A stretch of DNA of 64,000 nucleotides from Halosimplex salinum. Its GTDB lineage: Archaea; Halobacteriota; Halobacteria; Halobacteriales; Haloarculaceae. A program made the translations under genes and the position numbers. The notes under the pieces are model-generated. The model did not search any database and had not been told where the DNA came from. It saw nothing but the letters and a program-made list of their open reading frames with translations. The stretch is taken from assembly GCF_003730195.1 (NCBI RefSeq), contig NZ_QWGG01000007.1:1-64000 (forward strand), in the 5' to 3' direction. Of the stretch, positions 7,501-23,126 are shown piece by piece (within the stretch, counting starts at the first letter, position 1; the number at the start of each line of letters is the position of its first letter).

Positions 7501-9251
7501 AAGGGGATGTTCCACCGACACTGCGGAGCGCTATCGAGGAGGGGTTCCGCAAATCGGATCCAGATGTCAACATCGTTAGCGCGACTCCGACGATGGAACT
7601 CGGTGTGGACATTGGTGCCCTGGATTCAGTGGCACAGGTCGGGATACCGCCAACCTTGACCAACTACGTACAGCGCAGTGGCCGCACCGGGCGGACACGC
7701 GGCAGCGAATCTTTGGTGGCCACCACGGTACGCGGGACCCATCCTGTCGACGCACACTACTACGATGATCTGGATCGGTTCTTCGGCAGCTTCGATCCTG
7801 TCCGTGTTCCGGAACCGTTCGACTTCGACGAGATTCTGGCTGGCCATGTCGTGACCGAAGTCGTTGGCTATCTCGCTCGCAACCCGCAACCGGGCGACAC
7901 GTTCGAGGCGACCTATCGGGTTGATCAGTCGGTCGACTCGGTTGCTGCGTTCGCAGACCGGGTCGAAGCGAATCTTGATGAGCTACGCACCTTTGTCCGC
8001 GACGACATGGCAGACCAGTTGCGGGACCATATCGAGGGCGTGTTCAGGCAACGCGGCTTAGAGGTTTTCGACGAAATCTTCAGCGGTGCTGGGCCGGTGA
8101 GCTTTCGGCAACGGACACAGCAAACCTGTAGCCAACTCCGCAGCTTTAGTGGCAGTACCGATCTCGATGACATCCGTAACGGGAATGACCGATTGGATTT
8201 CTGGCTCAACCGACTGGGCTACCTAGCGAACTACCGAGAGTTCGGCCAACAATTCCCCGTCCAGTTCGAGGGCAGTAGTGAAAGCATCTCGTTCCAAGGC
8301 GATGGCCGCCTTTACGACTTCTACCCTGGTGAGGAGAACGAGCGCGGTGCAGTGATGACCTTGTACGGCTCAACCTATCTGGTATCGGACGTTGAGGGGA
8401 CGCAGGAACCGTTACAGACGGTGGCGATCTGTACAAACGACGACTGTACACGGCCGTTCGAAAGCTACCGGACAGCAGCGGAGCAGTGTCCGCACTGCGG
8501 CAGCCCTTTGGACATGATTTCGATTCACGGTGTTCAAGCAGTCAGTTGCCGGAAGGCCTACCAGTTTGAAGACCAGTTCAGCACATCGCCTATCATGACA
8601 ACTCACGTTGCTGGGCGCAGCGAGGCAGCGGCAAGCGACGAAGCCGTGGCATTCGGCCTCACCTGTGATATCGCGGTTGGCAGCTACGACGTGATCGACT
8701 TCATCCCGGCATTTGAGCGCCGCCATGCGATGGGATCCGGCAAAGATATCAAGCGGTCTGAGGCACGGATCCCTGATAGCGACACCGACGATGCTCGGCA
8801 TGCACCTGTGGGGAACCAATACGCGACACAGGGAATCACTCTCAGGTTTGAACAGGCGGAGATGGCTGATCGGCTTCCGGACACGGCGTTGGAGCAGGAA
8901 GGTGAGGCAGTGTGGCCCCAACTGTTCATTAGCCTAGAGCAAGCGCTGACAAAAGCAGTTGCCGTCGAGACGCAGAGTGACCAAGACGATTTCCGTGTGA
9001 AAGTGATGGCAACCGACGATGAGGTCTGTGTCTACATCGTCGATAACCGGCAGGGTGGCAACGGGATCGCGACACAGGTTGACCAGCACTTGGACGCTGT
9101 CGTCAACGAGGCTAAGAATGTTATCGACTGTGACGAGTGTAGCGGCTACTGTGAGAACTGCCTCTTAATCGACCGGACGCCGGCTACCTATCTCGACAAC
9201 GACTTGCTGAACAGGACAATATTGGCGAAGGCATTAGGACAGCCGGCATGA
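4509..9251 (+). CDS. Giant SF2 helicase with zinc motifs and DUF1998-type C-terminus
   Basis: A 1580-residue DEAD/DEAH helicase and first gene of a five-gene operon. Walker A PTATGKTE is at about residues 119-126, DEAH near 287 and motif VI YVQRSGRTGR near 1053. A zinc-ribbon insertion (CQTC...C and CRTC) lies near 560-585 and further CxxC pairs near 905-925 and 1320. The C-terminal CDECSGYCENC near 1540 is the four-Cys signature of DUF1998 helicases (MrfA, DrmB). The ATG at 4509 is preferred because the protein starts well before the helicase core. In bacterial Dpd clusters a comparable helicase (DpdJ) is part of the restriction arm. That role here is inferred from size, order and neighbours. 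Confidence 0.87.
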   Translation: MPSPLDAFTAATDRASEITWWNRKLTKLNRISGVTNAPSFVSNELVDTKGPYLEFVSPPATTTRPATELLDQYDYDDRVVDAIVDELFGGDQAGSLYQHQAETIEAIETDSDDNILAVPTATGKTESFFFPLLNDCVSTNEDGLKAIINYPMKTLGVDQLNRFLRYIDTVNQELPREDRVTIGIWDRDTPAAVGPRDFDLEIGANIRGLECPRTQDDLRVTTDGTPGSESWTYPWLKITREQIRDGVDILLTNPEALDYMFVSDNEHTRDILGQGPEKSPVQHVVFDEAHVWSGISGSSIGLLIRRLKQFYAAHDPQVTLVSATIENPSDLASVLTGTNQDEVNEIGFTARDFPVTGTTDFDRFAECSLRDIVETLVLTERHAVDRETFCDSYPQLTGAVTTLEEIGLLAGPDPLNVPDQHRDWVFAPIADSIDTEQEADTAKAIQNGGTALGIAAEELDILTEQVVEHGDIGGRWFQFIRDTVPEVATLASWFMDESTTEVEFEHYADLVNRLEEAGASNPDETVSALLALGRAAGMVTAKYHMFAKPPRKIYWCQTCEEVIRGRSCPEGHQTRELRFCRTCHHPFVEVDTENENEDEDEEVFQPVYGGGTDGPCPGCSTSRLRLTDITVPTPTLLSFMLTSLCRSMPSEKTLVFSDSRSTAESVSNEIIGTEYGLTAETLYVKQLIEEGGQAEVRSLFYPVVETLREQYWQPLQQNTPDRETDANDILVELWNEIEPNARLSECQHLREAALVTPAWVYTCPNPKTAAIGHEVFNLFVTRFPPQFQKHGIQFKGYTRERLVNKLESETRFTEQELSEVVDDVLQGLLDSGVLEFKTWDDVRSTILNAGKDEATEDDVFEYIEDQIEHLEARDGYGDVGGGIFVVQNYASESDLQLVPRVTFCDDCYTASPVPRDGDSLDHCPTCGNTVDVHQRFRVEDDGSLTLLGWADIESDWEYPVDHWGHDLLSPLIPSEGTPVSRDEVEALELDFITVGIHKGDVPPTLRSAIEEGFRKSDPDVNIVSATPTMELGVDIGALDSVAQVGIPPTLTNYVQRSGRTGRTRGSESLVATTVRGTHPVDAHYYDDLDRFFGSFDPVRVPEPFDFDEILAGHVVTEVVGYLARNPQPGDTFEATYRVDQSVDSVAAFADRVEANLDELRTFVRDDMADQLRDHIEGVFRQRGLEVFDEIFSGAGPVSFRQRTQQTCSQLRSFSGSTDLDDIRNGNDRLDFWLNRLGYLANYREFGQQFPVQFEGSSESISFQGDGRLYDFYPGEENERGAVMTLYGSTYLVSDVEGTQEPLQTVAICTNDDCTRPFESYRTAAEQCPHCGSPLDMISIHGVQAVSCRKAYQFEDQFSTSPIMTTHVAGRSEAAASDEAVAFGLTCDIAVGSYDVIDFIPAFERRHAMGSGKDIKRSEARIPDSDTDDARHAPVGNQYATQGITLRFEQAEMADRLPDTALEQEGEAVWPQLFISLEQALTKAVAVETQSDQDDFRVKVMATDDEVCVYIVDNRQGGNGIATQVDQHLDAVVNEAKNVIDCDECSGYCENCLLIDRTPATYLDNDLLNRTILAKALGQPA

Positions 9252-9288: not shown

Positions 9289-10185
9289 ATGAAGTGGCAG
9301 GCGCTCCAATCGTTCCTCTCTCAACAGGGCGTATTGTTCATCCACGACACGACCGAGCAACGGCCACAGTTCGGACTGCTCCGCTGTCTGCCCGCGCTCC
9401 ATCGCCTCGGTATAGCGGAGTTTACGTATCCGTGGCAGTGGCGGAAGCTGCGAAACGGTAACGGCCAGGGTCTGTTCCCCTACCAGTACACCTTGCTGCC
9501 GAACATCGAGTACGACGATCAAATGCTGGCAGCACTGACGACTCAATACTACGAGGATAAGACACAGCACTCGATCAGCAGCCTGATCAATCAGTGGCGG
9601 CACAGCGGAACGATGGTCGTCGTCGCCAACGAGAGACGATTTCAAACCCAGCAGGGGTTGCGTCCGCTCTACCACGAACCCTTCGCCATTGCACGGCGCC
9701 CCTATACTGATGTCTATGACGCGGTCCAGCAGTGGTACAACGACCAGGGCTTCGTTTTCAGACTGACCGACACACAGAATGTCTTCCTCCAAGACAACGC
9801 TATCTTGTACGAACTCGTCTCTGGTGAGACGGTAACCCAGACAACTGACCTCTTCGACGTGGTGAACGATGCGCCGTATCTCCCGCTCTACGACGTGATC
9901 GCCGCAGCGTTCCAAAGTGAGGACGGCCTCGGAACAAGCCCCAAGAAGGATGTTACGTTACAGGCATTTGCCGATTGGTTCCGTCGCCGTATCGAGTGGG
10001 AGCCTTCTGAAGCAGAGGCAGTTGTTCGTTCACTGAACGCCATGGTCTCGGAGAATATGCGGGCATTCGATCCGGCTGCTGTGGCTCAGGACGCAGCGAT
10101 GATCGACGCACGTCGTCAAGCCAATGACCTCGAATCGACACCTATCGGGCAGACTTACAAAGCGTGGCTACAACGGGACCCGTAA
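9289..10185 (+). CDS. Unknown protein in helicase/ATPase operon
   Basis: A 298-residue soluble protein that I cannot assign to a family. It is rich in aromatic residues and Gln, has no membrane segment, and shows no Walker, HKD or nuclease motif. In bacterial Dpd clusters a phospholipase-D-like protein (DpdK) is a common small partner, but the HKD motif needed for that call is absent. It starts 37 bp after the helicase gene, and its TAA overlaps the next ATG (TAATG at 10183-10187), so it is translated together with its neighbours and probably joins the same complex. Confidence 0.75.
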   Translation: MKWQALQSFLSQQGVLFIHDTTEQRPQFGLLRCLPALHRLGIAEFTYPWQWRKLRNGNGQGLFPYQYTLLPNIEYDDQMLAALTTQYYEDKTQHSISSLINQWRHSGTMVVVANERRFQTQQGLRPLYHEPFAIARRPYTDVYDAVQQWYNDQGFVFRLTDTQNVFLQDNAILYELVSGETVTQTTDLFDVVNDAPYLPLYDVIAAAFQSEDGLGTSPKKDVTLQAFADWFRRRIEWEPSEAEAVVRSLNAMVSENMRAFDPAAVAQDAAMIDARRQANDLESTPIGQTYKAWLQRDP

Positions 10186-11033
10186 TGGCCGCTGCTGACC
10201 AAGGCTATATACTCAACACTATCCAAAATCCTCGGTCACTCAAACCGGTATATGAATCAGTCAATCGCGGCAATACGATTGGTGACGAGATTGTCGATGA
10301 TACCGGGCTGAGTGTTGCTGCCGTTGATGAGGGAGCGAAGGGATTACAGCGGTTAGGATTGCTCGAGTCCAATGACGAGGAGTACGCCATTCGGGAGTAC
10401 ACCTGGTCAACAGGTGATGAGATGCGTGACTTCCAGCTCACCGCGCTAGAACATCTTGCCTCGTCACTTACTCCCGCTGACTGGGGAAAGCAGGCAGTGT
10501 TTCACCTCAACTATACGTACCTTCTCAAAGAGGACCACCACCGGATCAACGACAACGACGAAGCGGTCCGGAAGCAGATGGACCGCTGGCAACGCGATGA
10601 GTTGGACTACTACCCAACCTACCGCGGCGACCGGATCGATTTGAACCCGAACAAGATGGAAAACTGGGGCCGCCTCGCCACGTATCTTGGCTTGCTTCAT
10701 CAGTACGACACACACGAATTCACGGTCTATCCTGATCCAGAGATCATCTATCACTCGGTCGAGCGAGCGCACGGCGCGGTTGGGCGGACAGTCGACAGCA
10801 ACGATGTCATTGAGGTGTCAGCGTATCTTGAGTGGCTGTCGACCAACCTGATCTACCTTCCAGACGACACAGCAGGCGTCCCTGCGGTCCTCAGCCGTGC
10901 CTTGTTCCACTTGCTGAAAGAAGAACAGATCCGCCTGGCAGAGATTGGGGACCAAGGCGCAATCACCTTTGACCGGATGCCAAGCCACCGTCGACGCGAA
11001 CAATCCGCGAACTCCATCGTCCTCACGCCATGA
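10185..11033 (+). CDS. Winged-helix-type protein, DpdG-like by size and order
   Basis: A 282-residue protein. A GTG 21 bp upstream is in frame, but the ATG at 10185 overlaps the preceding stop and is the natural coupled start. The first ~60 residues (ILNTIQNPRSL... then IGDEIVDDTGLSVAAVDEGAKGLQRLGLL) read as a winged helix-turn-helix. The rest is helical with no recognisable catalytic motif. Its stop overlaps the next ATG by 4 nt. In bacterial Dpd islands a protein of about this size (DpdG) precedes the ~1000-residue ATPase DpdH, which matches this arrangement. The link rests on order, length and the wHTH reading, not on an alignment. Confidence 0.7.
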   Translation: MAAADQGYILNTIQNPRSLKPVYESVNRGNTIGDEIVDDTGLSVAAVDEGAKGLQRLGLLESNDEEYAIREYTWSTGDEMRDFQLTALEHLASSLTPADWGKQAVFHLNYTYLLKEDHHRINDNDEAVRKQMDRWQRDELDYYPTYRGDRIDLNPNKMENWGRLATYLGLLHQYDTHEFTVYPDPEIIYHSVERAHGAVGRTVDSNDVIEVSAYLEWLSTNLIYLPDDTAGVPAVLSRALFHLLKEEQIRLAEIGDQGAITFDRMPSHRRREQSANSIVLTP

Positions 11034-14000
11034 GTAGCGAACCTACGCCTAAGACGTCCGACGACCTGTTCTGCCCTCACTTTCATGAGAAGAATGAATC
11101 CGATCTGCGAAGCCTGTTCAGCCGGGTTGCCGCAGTCCGCGCTGAAAATCCGGAGCTGTTCTGGTTCACCCATCGGCCGATCGAGCTCTTCCAGACTGAG
11201 GGAGGTGTCGACGGGCCATCTCTGGAAAGCGGTGACGAACGGGTTGTCACCGAAGACGATGTCTACCAAGAGTTCTCCGCGAGCCGTAACAAGAACTTTG
11301 CTGTCGTTATTGAGGGGGAGGTCGGGACCGGGAAGTCGGAACTCTGTGTGGCACTCACCCACAAGTTAGAGAACGAAGCTAATCGGCCGGTTCTGCGTGT
11401 CGACAAAAACACGGACCTGATGTCGATGCTGACGGAGGAAATCCCCGATTTCTACCAGACACACTTTGGCGAGACGTTGGATACGTCGTCTCGGTTCAAA
11501 CGGCTTGAAGACGATATCAAAGAGCGACCGCGGATGGTCGCAAGCCACGCGGTCTCGACCGCCTTGCTGGAGATCGGGTGGGACGGCTACGAAACGACGA
11601 TCGAACCGGCACAAGAAGACGAGATCTTAGATTTCGTGGCGGAACGGATCCGTGAACGGCTTGTCGAGACTCGGCAGTATGGTGAAGAGCCGAATTTGGT
11701 GACCAAGCAGGAGTACGATCAGAACAGTTTCCTTCAGGTGTTTGAGGAAGATGCCGATGCCTTCGAAGGACATCCAGCGGAGAAACTGAGCAGCGGGTTC
11801 TGGCAGGCATTACTTGACCAGTACGACACCCCGCCGTTGACAGATCTGCTGGAAGAGGTCGGTGAGAAATTCAACGAGGAATACGATGACAAACGTCCGG
11901 TCGCGGTCTTTGAGGACTTCTCGATCACCGGGATGCAGGCACGGCAACTCCGCAATTTCATGGAACGCGATAATCCCGGTGACAACTGGGATTTCATCGT
12001 CGCCGGAACTCGCGACTCGACTGCCGTCCTCCACAAGCGGACTGCAGAAGACCGATTCCGGTTCTACCGGACAAACAAGCAAAATTCCAACCAGGTCCTC
12101 TTCCTTGATGATGGATCAGCGGTTGACTTTATCCGGCCGTACCTCGGCTACATCAAGCACCACGATGGCAGCGTTCGCTACGACCGGGGCAATGACACCG
12201 GCGAATTCACCCTACTGGACCCGGAGTCAGACTCGCTCTGCGCAACATGCGGGCTGTGCGACGACAGTTTCCGCGACCTATTCCCATTCAACCAGCGGTT
12301 CGTCGAACGGATCTACACCGGGCTTGATGAAAGCGAGCAGTCGCCCCGTGAGCTGATCATTGTCGTTTTCGAGACCGTCCTCGAATACTTCAACGGGACT
12401 GCTAGGTGCCCTGCCACGGCAAGCCCCTTAGAGCATGTGACCAACCGGGTTGTAGCCCACGACGATGTCTATCACGAAGCCGAAGTCTTCGCCGATGTCG
12501 CAAAATGGTACGGCGATACCGACCGATACGAGGAGTACATCGCCGTTGACCGGGCTTTCTTCGAAGCGTTCGACCTCCTTCCTGAACACCAGGAAGAAGA
12601 CGACCTCCCCGCGAATATCGAACTGACCGACGACCACGTCAAGATTCCCGGCGTTGGGTACAAACCTCCCGAAGATTACGAATCGGACCCGAGTGAAGAG
12701 ACCGACGGTTATGACGAAGATGAGTCAGAGGAAGCGAGCGAAGACGACGGAGAGGACGATGATGACGACGGAGTGAGTCGTGTTGAGCGGATCATCAACG
12801 AACAAAGCGGCTACGTGGACAACTGGTACGCCAACCCACACGACGAGTCGTATGTCGAGACGGACGCGTACCTGCGAACGGCGTTCACCGACCTGATCAA
12901 CACGTTGACCCAGGATTACTCACTGTGGACGGATTGTGATCTGCGATACAATCTTAGTCGGTCGGATGATCCCTTCGTGTACGCATCGGCAGAATCAGCT
13001 CCAAACCCGGATCAGATTATCTTAGATCCCCGTGATTTCCAACGGTCCGACATTCGGGAGCTGTTACAATACGGGATTCGGCGTGAGGAGGCAGACGCCA
13101 GCGCCGATCAGCAACGGATTCTCGATATCGTCGGCGGACACCTGACAGCGTACGCGCGGCAGTGGCGAACGAAAGTCCGACAGCGGTATATCGAGGATCC
13201 GTCGGTCTACTACAAGTACGACCCGCCGTACGGGTTTGACGATTTCATCCTTGCAGCCTATGCGTGGATCGTGGTATTAGACGACCCGTGGCAAGAGGTG
13301 ACAGCAACGACGCTGAACAAGCGGTTCGCAAGCGGCGAAGAATACGCGTTGGACGCGACATTGAAGACGGCACTGACGGATGAATTGGCTCCCGAAGCGG
13401 AAGACCATATTGAGGCGTTCATGGGATATGCGGATGCGTTTGACGCCCTTGTCGCGGAACGCCTCGCTGTCAGTGACTCGACTCTGAACCTTCCTCGACT
13501 CCGTCGATGGCTGAACCATCATGAACCGCAAGACGTGTTGAGCCGACTCCGTGCCGACCCTGACCAATTGAATTCGCGTGTCCGATTCGATACTGACACG
13601 AAACTGGTCGACATGGTGACCAAGGCCTTCCGGATGCAGAAGTCACTGGACCAGCAGGAAGACCAACTGCACGACTACACGGTCGCACAGACCACATTGA
13701 ACGAGTTGGCAGGGACGGATATGGAGTGGATCCATGACAAGGTCGAAGTCTTAGATAACTACGACGTGGACCGCTCGCTGTATGAGTCACTGCTGCAGTT
13801 CGATTCGTATAGTCAAGATGAGGTGGATGCCGTGGTCGCGGCCAGCCAGTTATGTCTCGACACACTGGGTGCATCGACACAGGATTTGATCCATAAGATG
13901 CTGATTGAGTATAAATTGATGGAACACGAAGTCACTGAGGCGTTCAATGCGATCGACTTCGAAACGGGTGACACGACATCATCCTTCGCCCCGCACTTCC

Positions 14001-14035
14001 AGGAGGTGAGCCAGTACTATGTGGAAGGCGAGTGA
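11030..14035 (+). CDS. Large P-loop ATPase, DpdH-like by size and order
   Basis: A 1001-residue protein with a clear P-loop (GEVGTGKS, about residues 96-103) and a plausible Walker B (PVAVFEDFSITG near 285-295). A Cys cluster CATCGLC lies near 405 and a strongly acidic, low-complexity linker (Asp/Glu run) near 560-590. The C-terminal ~400 residues are helical and unassigned. It overlaps the upstream gene by 4 nt, and a strong Shine-Dalgarno for the next gene lies inside its 3' end. I infer an STAND/AAA-like motor or sensor of the restriction arm. What it recognises cannot be read from the sequence. Confidence 0.75.
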   Translation: MSSEPTPKTSDDLFCPHFHEKNESDLRSLFSRVAAVRAENPELFWFTHRPIELFQTEGGVDGPSLESGDERVVTEDDVYQEFSASRNKNFAVVIEGEVGTGKSELCVALTHKLENEANRPVLRVDKNTDLMSMLTEEIPDFYQTHFGETLDTSSRFKRLEDDIKERPRMVASHAVSTALLEIGWDGYETTIEPAQEDEILDFVAERIRERLVETRQYGEEPNLVTKQEYDQNSFLQVFEEDADAFEGHPAEKLSSGFWQALLDQYDTPPLTDLLEEVGEKFNEEYDDKRPVAVFEDFSITGMQARQLRNFMERDNPGDNWDFIVAGTRDSTAVLHKRTAEDRFRFYRTNKQNSNQVLFLDDGSAVDFIRPYLGYIKHHDGSVRYDRGNDTGEFTLLDPESDSLCATCGLCDDSFRDLFPFNQRFVERIYTGLDESEQSPRELIIVVFETVLEYFNGTARCPATASPLEHVTNRVVAHDDVYHEAEVFADVAKWYGDTDRYEEYIAVDRAFFEAFDLLPEHQEEDDLPANIELTDDHVKIPGVGYKPPEDYESDPSEETDGYDEDESEEASEDDGEDDDDDGVSRVERIINEQSGYVDNWYANPHDESYVETDAYLRTAFTDLINTLTQDYSLWTDCDLRYNLSRSDDPFVYASAESAPNPDQIILDPRDFQRSDIRELLQYGIRREEADASADQQRILDIVGGHLTAYARQWRTKVRQRYIEDPSVYYKYDPPYGFDDFILAAYAWIVVLDDPWQEVTATTLNKRFASGEEYALDATLKTALTDELAPEAEDHIEAFMGYADAFDALVAERLAVSDSTLNLPRLRRWLNHHEPQDVLSRLRADPDQLNSRVRFDTDTKLVDMVTKAFRMQKSLDQQEDQLHDYTVAQTTLNELAGTDMEWIHDKVEVLDNYDVDRSLYESLLQFDSYSQDEVDAVVAASQLCLDTLGASTQDLIHKMLIEYKLMEHEVTEAFNAIDFETGDTTSSFAPHFQEVSQYYVEGE
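14001..14010 (+). promoter_or_regulatory. Shine-Dalgarno site inside the upstream gene
   Basis: AGGAGGTGAG lies 8 bp before the ATG at 14019 and still within the coding region of the P-loop gene. It fixes the start of the 230-residue gene and shows internal re-initiation, notable because many haloarchaeal genes lack such sites. Confidence 0.75.
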
Positions 14036-14711
14036 CCAATCCCAGTTTGAGGAGGAACTTGATTCCATCCATCAACGATATCTCCGTCAAGACTTGGAGG
14101 ACCGGTTAGAGGATGTTGCAACCGAGATGGAGGAGACCATGCTGCAGGCAATCATTGCTCGAAATTTCCTCAGTTTGGGCATTGCAGTCTCCGATGATGC
14201 CAAGGGGCAGGTACGAGAAGCGAAGAGATTTGCCGATGAGCGTAAATTCGATGTCTTAGATGAGGTCATCGATGACGTTGAAGATAAGGTCAGTCAGGAA
14301 GCCCAAGAAGTCCAGGACGCGATCCAAGAAGAACGAACCGGAGAGCGAGACCGTGTCAGGGCGATGCGGAAGTTGAACGAGTACGTTGAAGCCACCGACA
14401 AGAGCCAACTCAAAGCACTGGAATCGCTGCTTGACGACTGGGATTGGAAGGCTCACGTCTATACCAACGAGAGTCAGGATTCATTCGAAGCGAAGCAACA
14501 GGAGGCACACGAGGTTGCTGAGACGATGTCGAGCGCCCTCCGACAGGTACAGGATGATCTCCTCGGAAGCTACAGCGGGACCTCTTTAGCGGATGTTATG
14601 GATCAACTCCTGTCTGACGACAGGTTCTATTTCAACGATCTTACTGCAGAAGAGCGTAAGGCGCTCACGGGATCGAACCTCGCAGATCACCTTGAAATCC
14701 GCCTCGGTTAG
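14019..14711 (+). CDS. Coiled-coil helical protein closing the restriction-type operon
   Basis: A 230-residue, highly charged, almost wholly alpha-helical protein. Long Glu/Gln/Arg heptad-like stretches (about residues 1-150) suggest a coiled coil. No catalytic motif is visible. It overlaps the P-loop ATPase gene by 17 nt and has a strong Shine-Dalgarno at 14001-14010. Coupling and shape suggest a structural or adaptor subunit for the ATPase. Function unknown. Confidence 0.75.
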   Translation: MWKASDQSQFEEELDSIHQRYLRQDLEDRLEDVATEMEETMLQAIIARNFLSLGIAVSDDAKGQVREAKRFADERKFDVLDEVIDDVEDKVSQEAQEVQDAIQEERTGERDRVRAMRKLNEYVEATDKSQLKALESLLDDWDWKAHVYTNESQDSFEAKQQEAHEVAETMSSALRQVQDDLLGSYSGTSLADVMDQLLSDDRFYFNDLTAEERKALTGSNLADHLEIRLG

Positions 14712-14753: not shown

Positions 14754-15374
14754 TTACTCGAAATAGTCATCGAGTTCCGCTTGAACCTCAGAGGGAGAGA
14801 GGTCGAGAAAGTCTCCCATATTCTCCTGCAGAATTCGCTGGTGCTCGTAGAGCGTCTGTTTCGTCTTCTCACTATGGCCGGCCAGTCGTATTTTATCAAC
14901 CATCCGTGATAGGTGCTCTAATTTCTGCTTTGTCCGATTGTAGGGTTGGGACCGAAATGCTCGCTCCTCCTCATCGATGAGCTGTATCTTTCCAGTCGGT
15001 TCATCGAGCTGTATTGGCGTACTGTCTACCGGCTGCTCGTGTTCCGTATCGAAGTTGAGATACGGTGAAAATTGCTCCAGAAGGTGCTGTTCGGCTAGTG
15101 CGTATTGGTCAGTCTCCCACCACCACAGATGGCTGATATCCCAGATATCCAACCGTCCGTAGCTTGCAACGCTTGAGTCTTGACGGATGAAATGCTGGCG
15201 GAGCCGTCCGCGAACATCACTACTCTTCCCGCCATAGGCCGGTTCGCCATCCAGATCAAAGAGACAGTAGACGCCCGGCGTATTGGTTGGGACCTGTTTC
15301 ACCTTTTCTGACAACATCCTGTCCACACGGTGGTCTCCAGTGTCTAATACCACCGTCGATCTTACTACACGCAT
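14754..15374 (-). CDS. GIY-YIG nuclease domain protein
   Basis: A 206-residue protein with an N-terminal GIY-YIG core: GVYCLFD at about residue 34, then AYGGKSSDVRGRLRQHF (residues 46-62), where the second element reads AYGG and the Arg-x-x-Leu-Arg-x-His context is kept. A Glu in the later helix (YALAEQHLLEQF) could serve as the metal ligand. The C-terminal half is helical and charged. It converges with the helicase operon and lies 137 bp downstream of the TGT/DUF5591 gene on the same strand, so it may be co-transcribed with the modification genes. GIY-YIG domains cut DNA in several restriction systems; that role here is inference. Confidence 0.8.
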   Translation of the reverse strand: MRVVRSTVVLDTGDHRVDRMLSEKVKQVPTNTPGVYCLFDLDGEPAYGGKSSDVRGRLRQHFIRQDSSVASYGRLDIWDISHLWWWETDQYALAEQHLLEQFSPYLNFDTEHEQPVDSTPIQLDEPTGKIQLIDEEERAFRSQPYNRTKQKLEHLSRMVDKIRLAGHSEKTKQTLYEHQRILQENMGDFLDLSPSEVQAELDDYFE

Positions 15375-15511: not shown

Positions 15512-17503
15512 TTACGACTTCTCTTTCGTCGGCATCGTGTTGAGAGACTGCTGCACTTTCTCGGCAAGCTCATCCAGATGCTCGTTCCGGAAATGCTCGG
15601 TAAGACGCCGTGCCGGCGGATCCGTCGGGAGGACTTTTCCGACTCCAGTCTGTGTGAATGCGTCGTCGATAACGACTCGATACGTTTTGCTTGTTGCATA
15701 CCCGAAGACCTGTTCATACTCATCGCCGTACGTCTTGAGGAATGACTTGAGGCGCCGAGTTACTAGGTCGGTCTGTGACGTATCGGCGTCAGTCAACACG
15801 TAATCATACGAGAGGATCGCGTCATCCCTTTCGTACTCTTTGGGCACCGGACCGTACAGTCCTGAGACAGACACTTTCTCGACACTGTCTCTGAGTCCTG
15901 CTTCTTGTAGCCGACTGTCGATAACGCCGTGTGTCCGTGAGTCGCTGTAGGGCTTTGTCTGACTGCACGGGACGAGTAAGCAAATCGGTCGCGTGGGATC
16001 CGGTTCAAACGATCGGTCCTGTAGATCAAAATCGCTCGGCGTATGCGAGAGTGACGTTCCATCCTGTGATGGGACGACGATTTCCCCATCGTCATTGAAT
16101 ATCGTCTGATATGTTTCCGGATTCGCCTCTGGTGCATTCGAGTCGATAGCTACGTCATCTGGAACCACAGACTCCAGTTCAGGCCACCGGCTCGCAGCTC
16201 GAGCGATCCCTGCGGCGATATCATCGTTGTCTTGAGCTGCGTCCCACACTTCTTGCTCTAACCTATTGTCGTCGATTGCGCGTCGGACATCGTCAACCTC
16301 CTCCTGGAAGACATGGAAGTTGTGGTGGGCGATCAGCGCGTAAAAATCGCTTTTCATGTACTTCATCGTCTGCCCGTCCCGTTTGACTTCGATTGGCTTG
16401 TAGGACTGATCCGCATTGAAGACGAACTTCATGTCCTGGAAACCGACTTCCGTAAGTTCCTTGCAGGCCTCACAAGTGCAATCCCACTCTGCCGCGTCGA
16501 TATCGTCTACTACCTTTTTTTCACCTGTTTCCCGGTCAATGAACTTCTTGTGCTGAGCCGCTTGAATATACGTTGACGAGTCATAACTATCGACACCAAG
16601 CGTTGCTAGCAATGGTGCGAGTCGGCCCCCAATTCCAAACACGTGCAGGGCAATTTCATTGCGGCGCTCGGGAGGAATAGCATCCGTCGCACCTTGGACG
16701 ATATCGACAAGGGTCCCGATATTCCCCGAACGTAGTGGGACGAGCGATCCAACTGCGAAGCCATCGATGGTCGATTCGTAGTCCGTTCGTTCAAGGAGGT
16801 TACTCACGTAGTAGGCAATCTCCTCGTAGTTGTGACCATGGATGGCCGCATAGACGGTTGGATCCCAATCTGCGTATCTCTCATTTTCTTCGAGAAGACG
16901 AATGCACTCAACAGCGCTATCAATACTATCCTCGACACGCTGGTATTTTTCTGCTTGATTGAGATCCGGTGGAATCGGATAATCAAGTGTTGCAAGCATA
17001 TCTGCCCCGTAGTCGTACTGAAGCGAGAGAATAGATTCGGGATTGGTGTAGATTTCCCACTCGTTCTCTTCCCCTCCTTCTTCGGGTGGATCGCCGAATG
17101 TTCGTGAGTTCATCAGCTTGAACCCCCCGGAGTCAACGAACAATGGCTGCGTAAATGGGGCAGGATCGGGATTATCCTTTGGTGAGTCGTGATCGGTATG
17201 CCACTCGTGTAGGCCCTCGGCTTCTGTCCGCCACGTTTCGAGCGAATCGGGGCTCAGATGAAAATCCAGGAAGCTCATTGCCTGAAACATCGCACCCTGA
17301 AATTTATCGTCGGCAAAGAGGCGGTTCCGGAGACGACTCCAGATACCCCCGGAAACAGGTGTTGGACCACCAATCAAATTGAGTACAGGAAAGAACGCTG
17401 GTGTCTCAACAGCACCCTGCTGAGGTGCCTCAGGGGTATGGATCCGGCCGAGCCTACCCGCACCGAAGTCTGCTTCACTCACTAACTCGAATCCGCGCGA
17501 CAT
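15512..17503 (-). CDS. TGT-like DNA transglycosylase fused to ArcS-like DUF5591 domain
   Basis: A 663-residue fusion. Residues 1-400 are a tRNA-guanine-transglycosylase fold. FVDSGGFK puts an Asp at 124, LDYP an Asp at 174, GFAVGSL follows near 248-253, and VDSYDSS carries an Asp at 308; these match the catalytic and base-binding Asps of TGT. Zinc ligands read as C342, C344, C347 and H393/H394. Residues ~502-645 match the C1 domain of archaeosine synthase (DUF5591), with its signature PCSQTKPYS at 512-520. Both catalytic Asps are kept, unlike the degenerate TGT domain I recall from ArcS. I infer a DNA-targeted enzyme that may both insert and elaborate the base. It starts 176 bp after the GHKL gene on the same strand. 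Confidence 0.85.
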   Translation of the reverse strand: MSRGFELVSEADFGAGRLGRIHTPEAPQQGAVETPAFFPVLNLIGGPTPVSGGIWSRLRNRLFADDKFQGAMFQAMSFLDFHLSPDSLETWRTEAEGLHEWHTDHDSPKDNPDPAPFTQPLFVDSGGFKLMNSRTFGDPPEEGGEENEWEIYTNPESILSLQYDYGADMLATLDYPIPPDLNQAEKYQRVEDSIDSAVECIRLLEENERYADWDPTVYAAIHGHNYEEIAYYVSNLLERTDYESTIDGFAVGSLVPLRSGNIGTLVDIVQGATDAIPPERRNEIALHVFGIGGRLAPLLATLGVDSYDSSTYIQAAQHKKFIDRETGEKKVVDDIDAAEWDCTCEACKELTEVGFQDMKFVFNADQSYKPIEVKRDGQTMKYMKSDFYALIAHHNFHVFQEEVDDVRRAIDDNRLEQEVWDAAQDNDDIAAGIARAASRWPELESVVPDDVAIDSNAPEANPETYQTIFNDDGEIVVPSQDGTSLSHTPSDFDLQDRSFEPDPTRPICLLVPCSQTKPYSDSRTHGVIDSRLQEAGLRDSVEKVSVSGLYGPVPKEYERDDAILSYDYVLTDADTSQTDLVTRRLKSFLKTYGDEYEQVFGYATSKTYRVVIDDAFTQTGVGKVLPTDPPARRLTEHFRNEHLDELAEKVQQSLNTMPTKEKS

Positions 17504-17679: not shown

Positions 17680-19203
17680 TTAGAATCGCTCCTGCACTTC
17701 AATGATCTCGATACGAGAGGTGGTCCCGTTCTTGTAGATAATCTCGCTCTCCGCGAAATCGAAGATCACCTCGCCACCTTGATACCCGTCTCGCTCGATC
17801 TCCTGAAGCTGGTCACGATCACCCAGGTCCCAGCAGACGATTTTCTCGACACTCTGAAGCGGCTTCTCCGCTTCAAAATGATCCATAAGTGTGGGATGGA
17901 GGGAGCAACTCCAGAGTTCCCCGTCCTTGCGGATCATCGCATTGATGTCCGATCCCATCTGAAAGTCTTCCGCCTGTACCGTCTCGGCGGAACTGTTCGA
18001 TCGCTCTAACGCGAGGAGTACCTCTGCTTGGTTTGTGGGTTCGAACGAATTTCGCTCCTTCACACGCTCACGGCGCTCTTCGACAGAAGATAGTTGCGAC
18101 TCCGCCTTCCGATCAAGCTCCGCGATTCGGCGCTGTTCGAGATAGTCCTTGAACCACGGGTCCTCTCCCACTTTCGAGAGGAAGTGATCGAGTTCGTCGA
18201 CGAGCGCCTGATAGACGGGGCTCGATTTGTTTCGGATCTTTCCGCGGTTTGCGGAGAGCTCGAGCTCCTGGCAGTTCGCGATGAAGAAGAAGTGGAGGAA
18301 CTCGTTGTCGTGAGAGATGGCTTCGTTCACCCGTTCCACTTTGATGAAGTCCTTCGCTAACCAGACTCCGAATTGGGCGGAGTGTTTCCCGTAGGTGGGC
18401 AGTTCGTTTCGAGCGGCCTTCCCACCGACCATCCCGACCACCTGTGCTGTCGTCGTTCCACCGTCGTGAGGGATTGTGAGCTCTTGAGGCGGGTAGATCT
18501 TGCACATTCGCTCTGCAGGGAACTCACCAGTACTTGGTCTGAGTTGCTCCGATGGGAACTCGAGACGATTCGTGGTCTGAAGTTCCGACTGTGTGTCGTC
18601 GATCTCCTCGTCCAGAACGACGCGGATCTCCATCTCCCGCTCTTCCTCGCCGAAATAGTGGGCTGTCGAGCCGGCGATGGTCTTCCACTTGAGGTAGTGG
18701 TGGATCTTGTTGTAGGTGAGCGACCTAGGGTCGAACCCCTGCCCGGATTTGAATCCCTCAATTCGGATCTCCGTCCCGTCGGTAGATTCAGTCGGTTCTA
18801 CCTCCGTAACTTCGTACTCCGGGAGAACTCGATCGTTGAGTTTCTCCCACGGGCGTTCCATCGTCGCCCGAAGAGTAGTGTCTCCAGTTGTCGTAGTGAC
18901 GACGATCCGCTCGCTCTTGTAGAAAATCTTCGTCCCGTGGCCTTTGTAGCCAATCGAATCCGTCTTCTGGGAATTACCGAGGTCGAAGAACGTTTCCAGC
19001 TGCTGGCGGTTCATTCCAGTTCCATTGTCCTCGATGATGATCTCGGAACCATTTGGGTGGCTGGATATTTCGATTTCGACGTTCGTCGCCTGTGCGTCGT
19101 AGCTATTCGAGAGCGATTCCCGAATCACTTCCAGTGGATCCTCGAAGTCGCTCGCCGTCTCGAGGAACTCGTTGACCTCATTGACCTGTGGTGACTTTTT
19201 CAT
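17680..19203 (-). CDS. GHKL (Hsp90/MORC-like) ATPase
   Basis: A 507-residue protein. A longer in-frame ORF exists, but the ATG at 19203 overlaps the stop of dpdA (TAATG) and starts just before the ATPase fold. The Bergerat fold is clear: N-box (EVIRESLSNSYDA, Glu and Asn), G1 box DNGTGM and G2 box GYKGHGTK within the first ~85 residues. The transducer-like region follows, and the C-terminus (~370-507) is unassigned. Its position between two TGT-like genes implies a role in base modification or in sensing modified DNA, like MORC/GyrB-type clamps. I do not know a precedent for this pairing; the role is inference. Confidence 0.83.
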   Translation of the reverse strand: MKKSPQVNEVNEFLETASDFEDPLEVIRESLSNSYDAQATNVEIEISSHPNGSEIIIEDNGTGMNRQQLETFFDLGNSQKTDSIGYKGHGTKIFYKSERIVVTTTTGDTTLRATMERPWEKLNDRVLPEYEVTEVEPTESTDGTEIRIEGFKSGQGFDPRSLTYNKIHHYLKWKTIAGSTAHYFGEEEREMEIRVVLDEEIDDTQSELQTTNRLEFPSEQLRPSTGEFPAERMCKIYPPQELTIPHDGGTTTAQVVGMVGGKAARNELPTYGKHSAQFGVWLAKDFIKVERVNEAISHDNEFLHFFFIANCQELELSANRGKIRNKSSPVYQALVDELDHFLSKVGEDPWFKDYLEQRRIAELDRKAESQLSSVEERRERVKERNSFEPTNQAEVLLALERSNSSAETVQAEDFQMGSDINAMIRKDGELWSCSLHPTLMDHFEAEKPLQSVEKIVCWDLGDRDQLQEIERDGYQGGEVIFDFAESEIIYKNGTTSRIEIIEVQERF

Positions 19204-20462
19204 TAGAAGTACCCCCCAAGGGAGTCGTTGATGACGCGATGGGCAAACCGTCGCATCGATTTGTTCCGTCCGACAGTCGATTCGATATACTCTGCGAGTC
19301 CATCCGCTCCGTCGTCGTGGATGCACTCTCTAATTCGTGTTACCTCGTCTTTCTGGATGATCAGATTGTGCATGGATACGGCCCCCAGTTCGTCTTTTTT
19401 GTACTCGGCGTCCCCTCTCATCCATGCTCGGAGTTCCGGATTGGAACACACCGGACAGTAGCAATCTTCAAACGACGCTTCATCTAGCGGCACGGTATTC
19501 GTGAGCGACGTGTGGTACTTCCCGTTTATCGCCGCGTGGATGTACGAAGAGGAGTCGAACGAATCGACTCCGAGCGCGATCAGTAGTGGAATGGAACTGC
19601 TCGAAATCCCGAGGACGTGAAATGGAAGATCATCGAACTCGTAGTCGGCCAAGACCTCCTTACAGTCGCTGACTGCCGTAATCAGATCGCCTTTGTTGTC
19701 CTTCTTCGGAACCAGACTTCCGAGAGCGATTCCGTCGAAGCACGACCGGACGAGATGTGGGCCGAGAATATCTGTCAACTCAGATAAGAAAGTATCACAC
19801 ATCGAGTAGTTGTACCCGTGTATGGTGAGATACCGGACAGATTTATGGTCCCCAGACAATCGCAAGAACTCAGCGACATTCTGTGCTGTTTTCCTGGCCT
19901 TTTCGACGCGGGTCTGATACCCGTCGTCAGGCGTAATTGGATGGTCGAGATTGACGAGAACATCACCACCCAGTTGTTGTTGAATATCGAAGACCGCTCG
20001 CTGGTCAATCTCCATCTCGAAGTCGCTTCCATCTAACTCGCCGTCGTGGAGAAATTTGTATCCGCCAGAGTCAACGAACAGCAGTCCATCGAACTCGGAA
20101 AACTCTGACCGTTCCTTGATCGGTGTTTCGAGATATGTTTCGAACGTATCTCGTGGTATCCCGTAATCTGTGAGCGATGAGACAGAAACCATCGCTGCAT
20201 CGAAATACTCAGCACACGCTTCGAGGTCCAACTTTCCTCGTCCCGTCATGAACTCCTTCATCGTCCGGTGGATGCCACCACCGAACAGACTCTGTTCGAG
20301 ACCACCCGCATAGAAATTTATCACCGGGAACAGATTTGGTGTCTCGAGTGCAGTGTCGTCGAAGCTCAGTTGTCCCGCGCGTGCATCTCCTGCAGTCGAC
20401 TCAACGGTAAACGAACTATGTGAGGTGACTGCATCGCCAACAATAGCTGAGTGTGACTTCAT
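19203..20462 (-). CDS. dpdA: DpdA-type DNA guanine transglycosylase
   Basis: A 419-residue TGT paralogue with no PUA or tRNA-binding domain, as expected for DpdA, which exchanges guanine in DNA for preQ0. Catalytic residues by position: D131 in FVDSGGYK, D173 in LDHP, GIALGSL at 244-250, and D303 in SFDSSSYIHAA. Zinc site: C334, C336, C339 and H365. It overlaps the DUF6884 gene (ATGA) upstream and the GHKL gene (TAATG) downstream, so the three are translationally coupled. The preQ0 genes queD, queE and queC diverge immediately beyond. The assignment to DNA rather than tRNA rests on length, lack of PUA and context. Confidence 0.85.
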   Translation of the reverse strand: MKSHSAIVGDAVTSHSSFTVESTAGDARAGQLSFDDTALETPNLFPVINFYAGGLEQSLFGGGIHRTMKEFMTGRGKLDLEACAEYFDAAMVSVSSLTDYGIPRDTFETYLETPIKERSEFSEFDGLLFVDSGGYKFLHDGELDGSDFEMEIDQRAVFDIQQQLGGDVLVNLDHPITPDDGYQTRVEKARKTAQNVAEFLRLSGDHKSVRYLTIHGYNYSMCDTFLSELTDILGPHLVRSCFDGIALGSLVPKKDNKGDLITAVSDCKEVLADYEFDDLPFHVLGISSSSIPLLIALGVDSFDSSSYIHAAINGKYHTSLTNTVPLDEASFEDCYCPVCSNPELRAWMRGDAEYKKDELGAVSMHNLIIQKDEVTRIRECIHDDGADGLAEYIESTVGRNKSMRRFAHRVINDSLGGYF

Positions 20463-20926
20463 TGTGCCTGCGGTAGTTCAGTATCCGACTGTAGCGACTG
20501 CAAGAACTCCTTCAGAAAATGTCCCTTCTCTCCAAGGCCCTCTCCATCTACCAGCACTAACTCTGCGTCAAGACCGTTCTGAAAGCCGTCGATTGCCTCC
20601 CAGTACGTCTTTCCGGCGTTGACGACTATCTGTTCGTACTCGGAATTCTCAGCGAGTTCGCGTAGCTCCGTCGTGAGAGTCGGTCGAAGTTCAGCCGCGC
20701 GCTGCTCGTCCATCTTTCGGTCGTAGTTCTCAATGGGGTCGTCGGGATGGAGTAAACCGTACTCCGCAGAGAGAATTCTGATGTCGAATGGTGCGCCGTT
20801 GAGAGGGCTGTCGAGGGCGTTTTTGATGATCCGATAAAAGTACCCGTCGTATCGCTCGAACGCCGGAATCGGCTCTGGCGTGTCTACCTTCCGTTCTGAA
20901 CAGGATTGGACGAGTAGTGTGTTCAC
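20459..20926 (-). CDS. DUF6884 (YaaA-like) protein, possible base-maturation enzyme
   Basis: About 155 residues from a GTG at 20926. An in-frame ORF extends to 21070, but the domain starts right at LLVQSCSERK and the extra 48 residues look non-coding. Conserved DUF6884 features are visible: a Cys-Ser-x-x-Lys-type turn, FERYDGYFYRII, and ILSAEYGLLHPDDPI. The fold is related to YaaA and, distantly, to the DUF5591 domain of ArcS. It overlaps dpdA by 4 nt. In bacterial Dpd systems a separate enzyme (DpdC) turns the preQ0 nitrile into an amide; this protein is a candidate for a similar step. That is inference. The start is uncertain. Confidence 0.7.
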   Translation of the reverse strand: MNTLLVQSCSERKVDTPEPIPAFERYDGYFYRIIKNALDSPLNGAPFDIRILSAEYGLLHPDDPIENYDRKMDEQRAAELRPTLTTELRELAENSEYEQIVVNAGKTYWEAIDGFQNGLDAELVLVDGEGLGEKGHFLKEFLQSLQSDTELPQAQ

Positions 20927-21100
20927 GATGCGGGTGATCACGCCGACGGGTCTTATTGGTATCGCCGTCACCGAATCAGATGGCGCTGAGTTGAAGAGAC
21001 GACAACGCTCGTCGATTCTACTAGTGTGATTCGGATGTGGCCACGCCCCAAAGTCTGCCCTGATGGGCACACTTTAGTATTCCCTAGGTAATATCCCGGT

Positions 21101-21550
21101 ATGTCTCAGGGGGCAAAATCGGAACGTCGCACTCTCGGTTCGGAAGAACGAACGCTCGAAATCGGTAGTGAAACCCCCATCCGAATTAGCGCAGGCCATC
21201 GCCTGCAACACCACGACGGGAAGTGTTCGCGACCACACGGACATAACTACGAAATCTCGGTATCGGTCACTGGTGAGCTCACGAACGACGGCTGGGTCGT
21301 AGATAAAGGGGATATTACTGAGATATTATCTGAGTGGGATCATCGGTTCCTGCTCGAACGCGGTGATCCGCTCGTTTCGGCGTTCGAGCAGAGTGGTGAT
21401 GGGGACGCACTGGTCGTTCTCGACCACCCGCCGACAGCCGAGGTAATGGCAGTCGTCCTCGAGCGTAAGATGCTGGAGGCGTTCCCGGATTCCGTCTCTA
21501 ACGTCTCCGTCGAAGTGAGCGAGACGAGCGAACTCTGTGCCACGTACTAA
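21101..21550 (+). CDS. queD: QueD, 6-carboxy-5,6,7,8-tetrahydropterin synthase
   Basis: A 149-residue 6-pyruvoyl-tetrahydropterin-synthase-family protein. Zinc ligands are His33 (AGHRL) and the two His of PHGHNY (46, 48), and the catalytic Cys is in KCSRPHGHNY (about 42). The DKGDI and DHPPTAE motifs of the family are present. It converts dihydroneopterin triphosphate to CPH4, the second step to preQ0. Its stop overlaps the queE start (TAATG). GTP cyclohydrolase, needed for the first step, is not in the window and must be supplied elsewhere. Confidence 0.93.
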   Translation: MSQGAKSERRTLGSEERTLEIGSETPIRISAGHRLQHHDGKCSRPHGHNYEISVSVTGELTNDGWVVDKGDITEILSEWDHRFLLERGDPLVSAFEQSGDGDALVVLDHPPTAEVMAVVLERKMLEAFPDSVSNVSVEVSETSELCATY

Positions 21551-22329
21551 TGCCGGTCAATGCAGACGTCGAGAGACCGGACACGGAGTCCTCAGCAGAG
21601 TCCGCACAATCACTCCCGATCAACGAGCTGTTCTATTCCCTGCAAGGGGAAGGAAAGCTCGCGGGCGTTCCGACAGTCTTCGTGCGGACAAGCGGCTGTA
21701 ATCTCCGCTGTTGGTTCTGCGATTCCTATCACACCTCTTGGGAACCAACCCACTCGTGGATGAGCCTCGACGATATTATTGACGAGGTTTCAGCATACGA
21801 CCAAGCCACTCACGTCGTCCTGACTGGTGGTGAACCACTGATGTACGACGACAGCGTCGAGTTACTGAATCGGCTCGGCGAAGCCGGGTATCACACGACC
21901 GTCGAGACGAACGGGACAATCTACCGCGACGCACACATCGACCTCGCGAGCATCAGCCCCAAATTAGCGAGCAGTACACCGACACCCGAGAAGGATCCTA
22001 AGGGGGAGGGAGACTGGGCATCTCGTCACGAAGACCGACGGATCGACATGGGGGCACTCACGACGCTCGTCGACGACTACGAGAGTCAACTGAAGTTCGT
22101 CGTCACAGGTCCCGATGATATGGACGAGATCGAGGAGTTGGTCGACCGAGTCCGGGATGCAACGTCGACTGCGATCCCCGATTCAGACATCTTGCTGATG
22201 CCGGAAGGGGTGACTCGCGATCAACTGGACGAGACGAGAAATGAAGTCGCCGAACTGGCGACCGAACATGGATATCGCTACACGCCGCGGCTACACGTCG
22301 ACCTCTGGAACGATGCCCCCGGAACGTGA
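21550..22329 (+). CDS. queE: QueE, 7-carboxy-7-deazaguanine synthase (radical SAM)
   Basis: A 259-residue radical SAM enzyme with CX3CX2C at residues 50-57 (GCNLRCWFC), preceded by the family motif FYSLQGEGKLAGVPTVFVRT. The TGGEPL motif for SAM binding is present. It rearranges CPH4 to CDG. Coupled to queD by an overlapping stop/start, with queC 69 bp downstream. The N-terminal ~24 residues are an acidic, probably disordered tail. Confidence 0.93.
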   Translation: MPVNADVERPDTESSAESAQSLPINELFYSLQGEGKLAGVPTVFVRTSGCNLRCWFCDSYHTSWEPTHSWMSLDDIIDEVSAYDQATHVVLTGGEPLMYDDSVELLNRLGEAGYHTTVETNGTIYRDAHIDLASISPKLASSTPTPEKDPKGEGDWASRHEDRRIDMGALTTLVDDYESQLKFVVTGPDDMDEIEELVDRVRDATSTAIPDSDILLMPEGVTRDQLDETRNEVAELATEHGYRYTPRLHVDLWNDAPGT

Positions 22330-22398
22330 CACCGAAATCGATGCTACCGATCACAGACCAGCTACGGAGTATGCAGTTCCAACGACCCATTACGACCA

Positions 22399-23118
22399 AT
22401 GAGTGACGAAAAGCGAGCCGTGATTCTAGTATCGGGCGGGATGGACAGTGCGACGGCTGTCTACGAGGCGATCGACCGTGGCTACGAGCCGTACTTTTTC
22501 CACACGTCGTACGGGCAAGAGACCGAAAACAAGGAACAAGAGTGTGCAGAAGCGCTTGCTGCTGAGGTCGACGCGGCCGACTTTCTCCACGTCGAGACAC
22601 ACCACCTGGTGGCAATCGGCGCGTCGAGCCTGACGGATACCGACATCGACGTGGCCGATGCCGATCTGGATAGTGACGATATCCCGACCTCCTACGTCCC
22701 GTTCAGAAATGCGAATTTGCTCTCGATGGCAACATCGTACGCCGAAGCAAACGATTGTTCGGCTGTGTTCATCGGCGCGCATAGCGAGGACTTCTCGGGA
22801 TATCCAGACTGCCGGCCCGAGTTCTTCGACGCGTTTCAGCAGGTCATCAATGTCGGCACGAAGCCGGAGACGAGGATCGAACTTGTCGCACCGTTCGTCG
22901 AGTGGTCCAAGACCGACATCGCAGAGCGCGGGCTGGAACTCGACGTCCCCTATGAGATCACCTGGAGTTGCTATCGAGACGAAGAGCCAGCCTGTGGAAG
23001 GTGTGATGCTTGTGCCTTCCGCCTGCAGGCGTTCCAGCGGGTCGGTGTCTCGGACCCAATCGACTACGCCGAGCGGCCGGAGTATCACGCCGAGTCGCTC
23101 ACAGACTCCGCTGAGTAA
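22399..23118 (+). CDS. queC: QueC, 7-cyano-7-deazaguanine (preQ0) synthase
   Basis: A 239-residue PP-loop ATP pyrophosphatase with SGGMDS at residues 12-17. The C-terminal zinc site reads C(YRDEEPA)CGRCDAC near 198-212. It makes preQ0 from CDG, ATP and ammonia. Haloarchaea need preQ0 for tRNA archaeosine anyway, so a local copy next to dpdA points to a dedicated supply for DNA. Whether the genome carries a second queC elsewhere cannot be seen. Confidence 0.93.
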   Translation: MSDEKRAVILVSGGMDSATAVYEAIDRGYEPYFFHTSYGQETENKEQECAEALAAEVDAADFLHVETHHLVAIGASSLTDTDIDVADADLDSDDIPTSYVPFRNANLLSMATSYAEANDCSAVFIGAHSEDFSGYPDCRPEFFDAFQQVINVGTKPETRIELVAPFVEWSKTDIAERGLELDVPYEITWSCYRDEEPACGRCDACAFRLQAFQRVGVSDPIDYAERPEYHAESLTDSAE

Positions 23119-23126
23119 CGGCCGGT

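Follow-up and report, generated by a model that had tools for sequence, protein, structure and literature searches.

What might a haloarchaeon do with a single polypeptide that carries both an intact tRNA-guanine transglycosylase (TGT) active site and the DUF5591 domain of archaeosine synthase (ArcS)? The question is raised by a 663-aa protein (hereafter, the fusion) encoded in the 64,000-nucleotide stretch of DNA analyzed here (“the window,” bases 1-64000 of the 241-kb contig C26, from a host genome of 5.07 Mb). The plus strand of its interval (15512-17503) is full of stops; the open reading frame is on the minus strand and is laid out as follows.

15512..17503, minus strand: fusion protein, 663 aa, with a TGT domain (aa 1-427) and a DUF5591 domain (aa ~499-650) (ORF, Pfam, AlphaFold2)
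16223..17503, minus strand: TGT-fold part, aa 1-427 (Pfam TGT, VIA-align Z 37.7 to 1j2b, invariant columns)
15641..16009, minus strand: DUF5591 (ArcS-type) domain (Pfam, hhalign, conserved columns)
15944-15970, minus strand: PCSQTKPYS, aa 512-520, inside the DUF5591 domain

Both domains matched Pfam above the curated cut-offs (TGT, PF01702, aa 16-352, E 3.9e-24; DUF5591, PF17884, aa 499-620, E 3.9e-14), while no PUA domain was matched by Pfam and the AlphaFold2 model stops after the DUF5591 helices. The TGT part contains D124 (in DSGG), D174 (ATLDYP) and D308 (YDSS), which we take to be the catalytic aspartates, and C342, C344, C347 and H394, which we take to be the zinc ligands, these roles being assigned by alignment to the archaeosine TGT (arcTGT) and from the TGT literature. 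The preliminary description of this locus had credited the protein with the three Asp positions and zinc ligands of an active TGT and with an ArcS-type signature in its C-terminal part, and was right on both counts. In an alignment (A2) of the window protein with 45 fusions from named genomes, drawn from 49 fusion ORFs longer than 550 aa (loci L130, L132, L168 and L176 were left out), D124, D174, D308, C347 and H394 were present in 46/46 archaeal and bacterial fusions, as were C513, K517, P518, Y519 and S522 of the DUF5591 part; the D124-S-G-G motif, H222, H287 and SG-YGPVP at 547-554 were also invariant. C342 was retained in 45/46 and C344 in 36/46, and one haloarchaeal clade has the alternative zinc spacing CDLPNCxLC. 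H525, the final letter of the ArcS signature, was found in 41/46 fusions (the window protein included) and replaced in the other five. The fusion is maintained in different phyla, where its members are 28-52% identical to the window protein, and the joining of the two domains is therefore more than chance.

The AlphaFold2 model made from this alignment had a mean pLDDT of 86.3 and a pTM of 0.84, with a low-confidence linker at 454-480. Its TGT part superposed best, by VIA-align 2 against the PDB, on arcTGT 1j2b (Z 37.7, rmsd 2.7, 347 residues, 26% identity), followed by bacterial TGTs at Z ~34; the TGT fold is kept in the model, which speaks against a lost catalytic pocket. TGTs filled the whole-model list of PDB fold matches, and it was in a sequence search that the C-terminal part matched AF0587 (2q07; E 0.0032). 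By hhalign this part was assigned to ArcS at 98.9% (E 3e-17), compared with 81.7% for the DUF6884 family, and together with the Pfam match this confirms that it is related to DUF5591.

The fusion sits in a context resembling DNA modification, parts of which the preliminary description had missed: a second intact TGT (TGT2) and a DUF6884 protein in the fusion's own operon, and flanking genes resembling those of Dpd (7-deazaguanine) restriction. The operon runs in the order DUF6884 protein, TGT2, GHKL ATPase, fusion, all on the minus strand, and QueD, QueE and QueC are transcribed divergently from it.

127..4296, minus strand: DpdJ-like helicase, 161 bits vs cut-off 800 (profiles)
4509..9251, plus strand: large DEAD helicase with MZB domain, DruE/DpdJ-like (profiles)
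9289..10185, plus strand: sm1, conserved protein of the restriction-like module (relatives' neighborhoods)
10164..11033, plus strand: sm2, conserved protein of the restriction-like module (relatives' neighborhoods)
11030..14035, plus strand: DpdH-like AAA protein, 1001 aa (profiles)
14019..14711, plus strand: sm3, conserved protein of the restriction-like module (relatives' neighborhoods)
14754..15374, minus strand: GIY-YIG nuclease-domain protein (Pfam; near the fusion in 6/37 neighborhoods)
17680..19326, minus strand: GHKL/HATPase protein, up to 548 aa (profile matches)
19203..20462, minus strand: TGT2, 419 aa, catalytic and zinc residues intact, weak DpdA match (profiles, alignment)
20459..21070, minus strand: DUF6884 (YaaA/DpdC-like) protein with CSxxK (profiles, fold)
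21101..21550, plus strand: QueD, 6-carboxytetrahydropterin synthase (profiles)
21550..22329, plus strand: QueE-like radical SAM protein (profiles)
22399..23118, plus strand: QueC, preQ0 synthase (profiles)

Comparison with relatives suggests that the GHKL/HATPase protein starts later than at the position listed (most relatives being 509-529 aa) and that the DUF6884 protein probably starts near 20926. The usual DpdK (PLD) neighbor of the DpdJ-like helicase would fall beyond the contig end.

The DUF6884 protein matched DpdC weakly (E 4.4e-5). Its structural model, made from family alignment A3 (pLDDT 80.8), was closest in the PDB to AF0587 (2q07, Z 11.1) and YaaA (Z 10.6), the next best being 7.4; AF0587 is the same solved chain that the C-terminus of the fusion matched in sequence. 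Both families, DUF6884 and the fused DUF5591, begin with CSxxK and align over the S-G/A-x-x-G segment that follows, while KPYxxSxxH is absent from the DUF6884 proteins and kept whole in the DUF5591 domain of the fusion. The island seems, then, to encode two pairs of a TGT with a YaaA-superfamily (nitrile-enzyme) partner, one split between abutting genes and the other fused.

The proposal of the preliminary description, that one protein inserts preQ0 and then adds an amino acid or amine to give a base not yet catalogued in DNA, is partly supported. With this second pair in the operon and Dpd-like genes flanking it, the nearest known chemistry is that of Dpd (dPreQ0/dADG), and a new base becomes one of three options. 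The island shares with the Dpd system (DpdA-K) a TGT-family writer, here a TGT domain with its catalytic aspartates, beside a DUF6884/DpdC-like protein of YaaA/AF0587 fold, preQ0 genes, and DpdJ- and DpdH-like genes in the window with DpdK-like genes in relatives (roles as given in PMC11888242 and PMC12839542). Unlike Dpd, it has a nitrile-type domain fused in the ArcS manner, a second TGT and a GHKL ATPase. The fusion matched neither curated DpdA model (NF041059, cut-off 200 bits; PADLOC DpdA), TGT2 reached 28 bits, and no DpdB partner (DndB-like, PF14072) was matched in the host genome. The DpdJ match likewise falls far under the equivalog cut-off, which marks the island proteins as relatives of the standard Dpd proteins rather than as members of that set. 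As the two sources describe, dpd islands occur in eight bacterial phyla and require dpdAB (PMC11888242), and a distinct HerA-centered, TGT-bearing system, with occasional GNAT-TGT fusions, is present in archaea and bacteria (PMC12839542).

The fusion operon is conserved in haloarchaea and is linked to DpdJ/DpdH/DpdK-like restriction genes and often to QueDEC. Across the 392 genomes sampled from the order, 36 carried the fusion, 40 TGT2 and 26 the DpdH-like protein. Fusion and TGT2 occurred together in 35 genomes, fusion without TGT2 in one and TGT2 without fusion in five (Fisher p 2e-43, relatedness uncorrected); the corresponding counts for fusion and DpdH-like protein were 24, 12 and two (Fisher p 3e-27, again with relatedness uncorrected). 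A family sample of 146 genomes gave full-length fusions in 11 and any match at 1e-20 in 18. We compared 37 haloarchaeal neighborhoods of ~40 kb or less, from 35 genomes (the window's own included; 33 of the 36 fusion genomes of the order and two from the family sample) and two plasmid records. The set of DUF6884 protein, TGT2 and ATPase lay within 20 kb of the fusion in 30/37 (seven were without it), no more than 600 bases away in 23 and also on the same strand in 17; DpdH-like protein, sm1 and sm2 were together in 21, the other 16 lacking them within 20 kb. Helicases of at least 800 aa were found in 27 neighborhoods, a PLD (DpdK-like) protein in 12 and QueDEC in 14. The Haladaptatus YSMS36 plasmid carries two fusions with DUF6884, TGT2, ATPase, helicases and a PLD protein that is DpdK-like (PADLOC, E 3.8e-11), and the Natrinema SYSU A 869 plasmid carries a fusion relative with helicases, an ATP-binding protein and PLD. 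In one alignment, nine of ten second-TGT rows were valid, and the tenth (L022), a wrong-strand ORF, was dropped. Cultured, sequenced strains are among the carriers of the fusion, such as Halorubrum coriense DSM 10284, H. lipolyticum DSM 21995 and Thermogemmatispora carboxidivorans PM5.

The host also encodes arcTGT (C24:133654-135123) and an ArcS (DUF5591 E 2.9e-65 at C24:118060-118506) that carries PCSARKPYTDSQSH. With both enzymes elsewhere in the genome, the fusion is an accessory paralogue, an extra copy outside the archaeosine pathway, and it scored below the equivalog cut-offs of ArcS (NF040592, 82.5 bits against 440) and arcTGT (TIGR00432, 96.9 bits against 350). It resembles ArcS in domain order, a TGT fold followed by DUF5591 with PCxxxKPYxxSxxH (PC...KPY..S..H is present in 30/30 ArcS, comprising that of the host and 29 others of its phylum), but differs in its intact TGT site, in having no PUA domain by Pfam, and in a TGT half that groups with TGT2 rather than with ArcS. 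It resembles arcTGT (PDB 1iq8/1j2b) in fold, the three aspartates and the zinc site, but has His at 222 where arcTGT has Gln, no PUA domain by Pfam, and the added DUF5591. The statement in the preliminary description that the TGT half of ArcS is degenerate holds for the base pocket, since six haloarchaeal ArcS read D[AP]GS in place of DSGG, show a gap at the QG/HG motif and have lost GxxVP; it does not hold for every residue, the zinc ligands and the nucleophile-column aspartate each being kept in 5/6 (the sixth is a gap).

A TGT tree of 78 manually thinned rows (35 fusions, 11 TGT2, 11 arcTGT, 6 ArcS, 4 of a third type, 5 Methanofastidiosum and 6 bacterial) joined the fusion TGT domains to TGT2 with SH-aLRT 98, apart from arcTGT plus ArcS (97), and the fusions as a whole formed one side of a weakly supported branch (51). 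On this placement, given by a quick method with long branches flagged and the fusion clade at 51, descent of the fusion from ArcS was rejected. The ArcS-like domain order is thus poor evidence for common descent of the whole protein, and either an independent joining of the domains or an ancient shared architecture may lie behind it. We also considered H222 as a mark of DNA-type enzymes and set it aside: His is found there in the fusions, TGT2 and phage 9g DpdA, and Gln in arcTGT but also in bacterial DpdA-like TGTs. By our own reading of “KVHGFG,” DpdA His196 (Hutinet 2019) corresponds to H287 of the fusion, where the arcTGT rows also have His.

The fusion is not confined to archaea. A scan of one genome per species (84,980 species), in which a single-protein query found nothing and an alignment query gave the loci, returned 70 loci, 49 of them with a fusion ORF longer than 550 aa, from Halobacteria, Cyanobacteria, Candidatus Poribacteria, Chloroflexota, Deinococcota, Nitrospirota and Planctomycetota; in L175, from a MAG labelled Thermococcaceae, the copy is split across two frames. 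Neither TGT2 nor DUF6884 was seen beside the fusion in the bacterial loci. The fusion is next to a DpdJ-like helicase in L157, L160, L177 and L178, to a DpdK-like PLD protein in L177 and L178, and to GmrSD_N in L151 and L160; L151 also has a HEPN protein beside it and L178 a PD-T7-1-like protein. In L164 the neighbors are an alcohol dehydrogenase and a Uma2 nuclease. Profiles found no Dpd-like genes in the fetched flanks of many bacterial fusions, and the lack of such genes at most Poribacterial loci above all counts against a uniform defense role. QueC was present in 15/15 fusion genomes tested (13 bacterial, 2 archaeal), so preQ0 should be at hand; RaSEA was present in both archaeal genomes and in 0/13 bacterial ones, which makes archaeosine by the known route unlikely in the latter.

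Taken together, it seems probable that the fusion is a two-step DNA writer within a variant modification-restriction island of the Dpd (7-deazaguanine) type. The domains, conserved residues, fold, operon and co-occurrence on which this model is built were all observed. As its intact site and fold suggest, the TGT half would exchange selected guanines in DNA for preQ0 supplied by QueD/E/C, and the fused DUF5591 half would, by homology, use its conserved Cys/Lys/Tyr signature to attack the nitrile of the inserted base, converting it to an amide or amidine adduct. TGT2 and the separate DUF6884 protein would form another pair built in the same way, the GHKL ATPase may substitute for DpdB, and the DpdJ/DpdH/DpdK-like proteins would restrict DNA without the mark. 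We thus infer DNA as the substrate, the order of the steps, an amide, lysine adduct or archaeosine as the product, and immunity as the outcome. Against the model stand the missing match to curated DpdA models and the DpdB/DndB partner not found in the genome; the bacterial fusions, Poribacterial above all, with no Dpd-like gene in the fetched flanks; the 7/37 haloarchaeal neighborhoods without the TGT2 module and 16/37 without DpdH-sm1-sm2 within 20 kb; and the weakly supported clade of all fusions (51).

Which product the writer would leave depends on the DUF5591 half. It may be DpdC-like and hydrolyze the preQ0 nitrile after insertion; the resulting amide would make the mark the known dADG, a version that we rate short of an even chance. 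The CSxxK start and fold that DUF5591 has in common with the DUF6884/DpdC-like protein speak for it, as does the lack of RaSEA in the 13 bacterial fusion genomes, and there is a precedent in a Paenibacillus tyrfis protein (L198) in which DUF6884 is fused to a bona fide DpdA (NF041059, 482.8 bits; PADLOC DpdA, E 3e-128). That protein, too, joins a YaaA-superfamily domain to a TGT, but in the reverse order, with DUF6884 in place of DUF5591 and a true DpdA, and by analogy it offers a lead that pairing a TGT with a nitrile enzyme is functional. Hydrolysis is harder to reconcile with the whole ArcS signature KPYxxSxxH in the fused domain (H525 in 41/46), missing from DUF6884 proteins, with an hhalign match far stronger to ArcS than to DUF6884, and with the haloarchaeal operons, where the separate DUF6884 protein would be redundant.

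The same writer could instead be ArcS-like, transferring lysine or another amine onto the inserted preQ0; this we rate as slightly less likely than hydrolysis. The adduct would stay where RaSEA is lacking, or would become deoxyarchaeosine where a host RaSEA accepts DNA, and the distribution of RaSEA (2/2 archaeal, 0/13 bacterial fusion genomes) counts in favor of this reading. The full ArcS signature and strong ArcS profile match favor amine transfer, and ArcS of T. kodakarensis makes preQ0-Lys (PMC11298593). The missing bacterial RaSEA and the DpdC-like partner favor hydrolysis or a retained adduct; H525 is replaced in 5/46 fusions, and the portions of the literature available make no mention of a lysine adduct in DNA. 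The nearest phage parallel also points the other way: Vibrio phage nt-1 has, in one genome, a DpdA2 and a DUF5591 (ArcS) protein, but as two separate proteins, and low levels of dPreQ0, dADG and dG+ were found in its DNA (PMC6884629, where the function of phage ArcS homologues is called less clear). In a Foldseek search of viral models, the fusion model matched two nt-1 proteins separately (the 464-aa R9TGF0 and R9TEI9, “DUF5591 domain-containing protein”), as well as phage DUF6884 and YaaA proteins. Neither phage records nor viral contigs yielded a TGT-DUF5591 fusion; a viral origin was rejected, there being no relative in IMG/VR and the phage matches (two Synechococcus phages) covering the DUF5591 part only.

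In the most far-reaching form of amine transfer, which we regard as unlikely, one cellular enzyme common to haloarchaea and several phyla of bacteria would place preQ0 in DNA and then couple lysine or another amine to it there, the bulky, uncatalogued preQ0-amidine base serving as the self mark for restriction; if true, the lysine adduct would be the end product in those bacteria that lack RaSEA. Quite improbable is a non-catalytic DUF5591 half that aids recognition of DNA or preQ0 while the chemistry falls to TGT2 and DUF6884: haloarchaea usually have an intact second pair nearby (30/37), but C, K, P, Y and S of the signature are invariant in 46/46, and near the bacterial fusions, where no second TGT or DUF6884 was found, the protein must act without them. 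Equally improbable is a tRNA- or other RNA-modifying TGT/ArcS paralogue beside defense genes by chance, since although its nearest solved relative is the archaeosine tRNA-guanine transglycosylase and plasmid records label its relatives tRNA-guanine transglycosylase, the fusion has no PUA domain by Pfam, is patchy (36/392), occurs on plasmids and is linked to Dpd-like genes in a host with its own arcTGT and ArcS.

We found no description of a TGT-DUF5591 fusion in the literature on Dpd, TGT and archaea, nor the word DUF5591 in the papers searched, a body of text that mostly excludes subscription journals, so that its absence from print is unproven. If the fusion is indeed a DNA writer, Dpd-like 7-deazaguanine modification of DNA would reach into a conserved haloarchaeal accessory operon, whose two-domain writer escapes the curated DpdA models and recurs in bacteria of several phyla. 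Two questions become testable with it: whether chemistry of the ArcS type can act on DNA, and what the ArcS homologues of phages with 7-deazaguanine DNA produce, their function being called less clear in PMC6884629. Genomic DNA from strains that bear the island could reveal a new DNA base.

The GHKL ATPase of the operon (window 17680-19326) was present in every one of the neighbourhoods that also carry TGT2 and the DUF6884 protein (30 of 30, from 37 haloarchaeal neighbourhoods examined), and it is possible that this protein substitutes for DpdB. Elsewhere in the window, at 57893-59464, a lamin tail domain (LTD) is joined with a metallo-beta-lactamase domain.

Related domain fusions occur in other genomes, both archaeal and bacterial:

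L121 (Haladaptatus sp. YSMS36 plasmid), 20001-24700: two TGT-DUF5591 fusions, on opposite strands of a single island
L198 (Paenibacillus tyrfis), 15722-17731: DUF6884-DpdA fusion, 670 aa

In the P. tyrfis protein, the DUF6884 domain lies N-terminal to a bona fide DpdA within one chain, with a further TGT and helicases in the surroundings; the arrangement is a mirror image of the TGT-DUF5591 writer fusion of the window.

Methanofastidiosum and its relatives have stand-alone TGTs (~346 aa; loci L181-L187 and L191) that carry His at position 222, as the fusion does, and differ there from arcTGT. An additional haloarchaeal TGT (~344 aa) is encoded on Haloarcula sinaiiensis pHsi139 (L254), where it adjoins a BREX-like ATPase and QueD/E, and on a plasmid of Natronococcus sp. 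CG52 (L255), where its neighbours are DUF6884, PLD and a queuosine-precursor transporter; these two may represent either the host DpdA type that PMC6884629 mentions or a BRC-like system.

Apart from the island QueC (window 22399-23118), the H. salinum genome gave only partial QueC matches, of at most 32 bits and none full-length, so the tRNA archaeosine of the host may depend on the preQ0 genes of the island.
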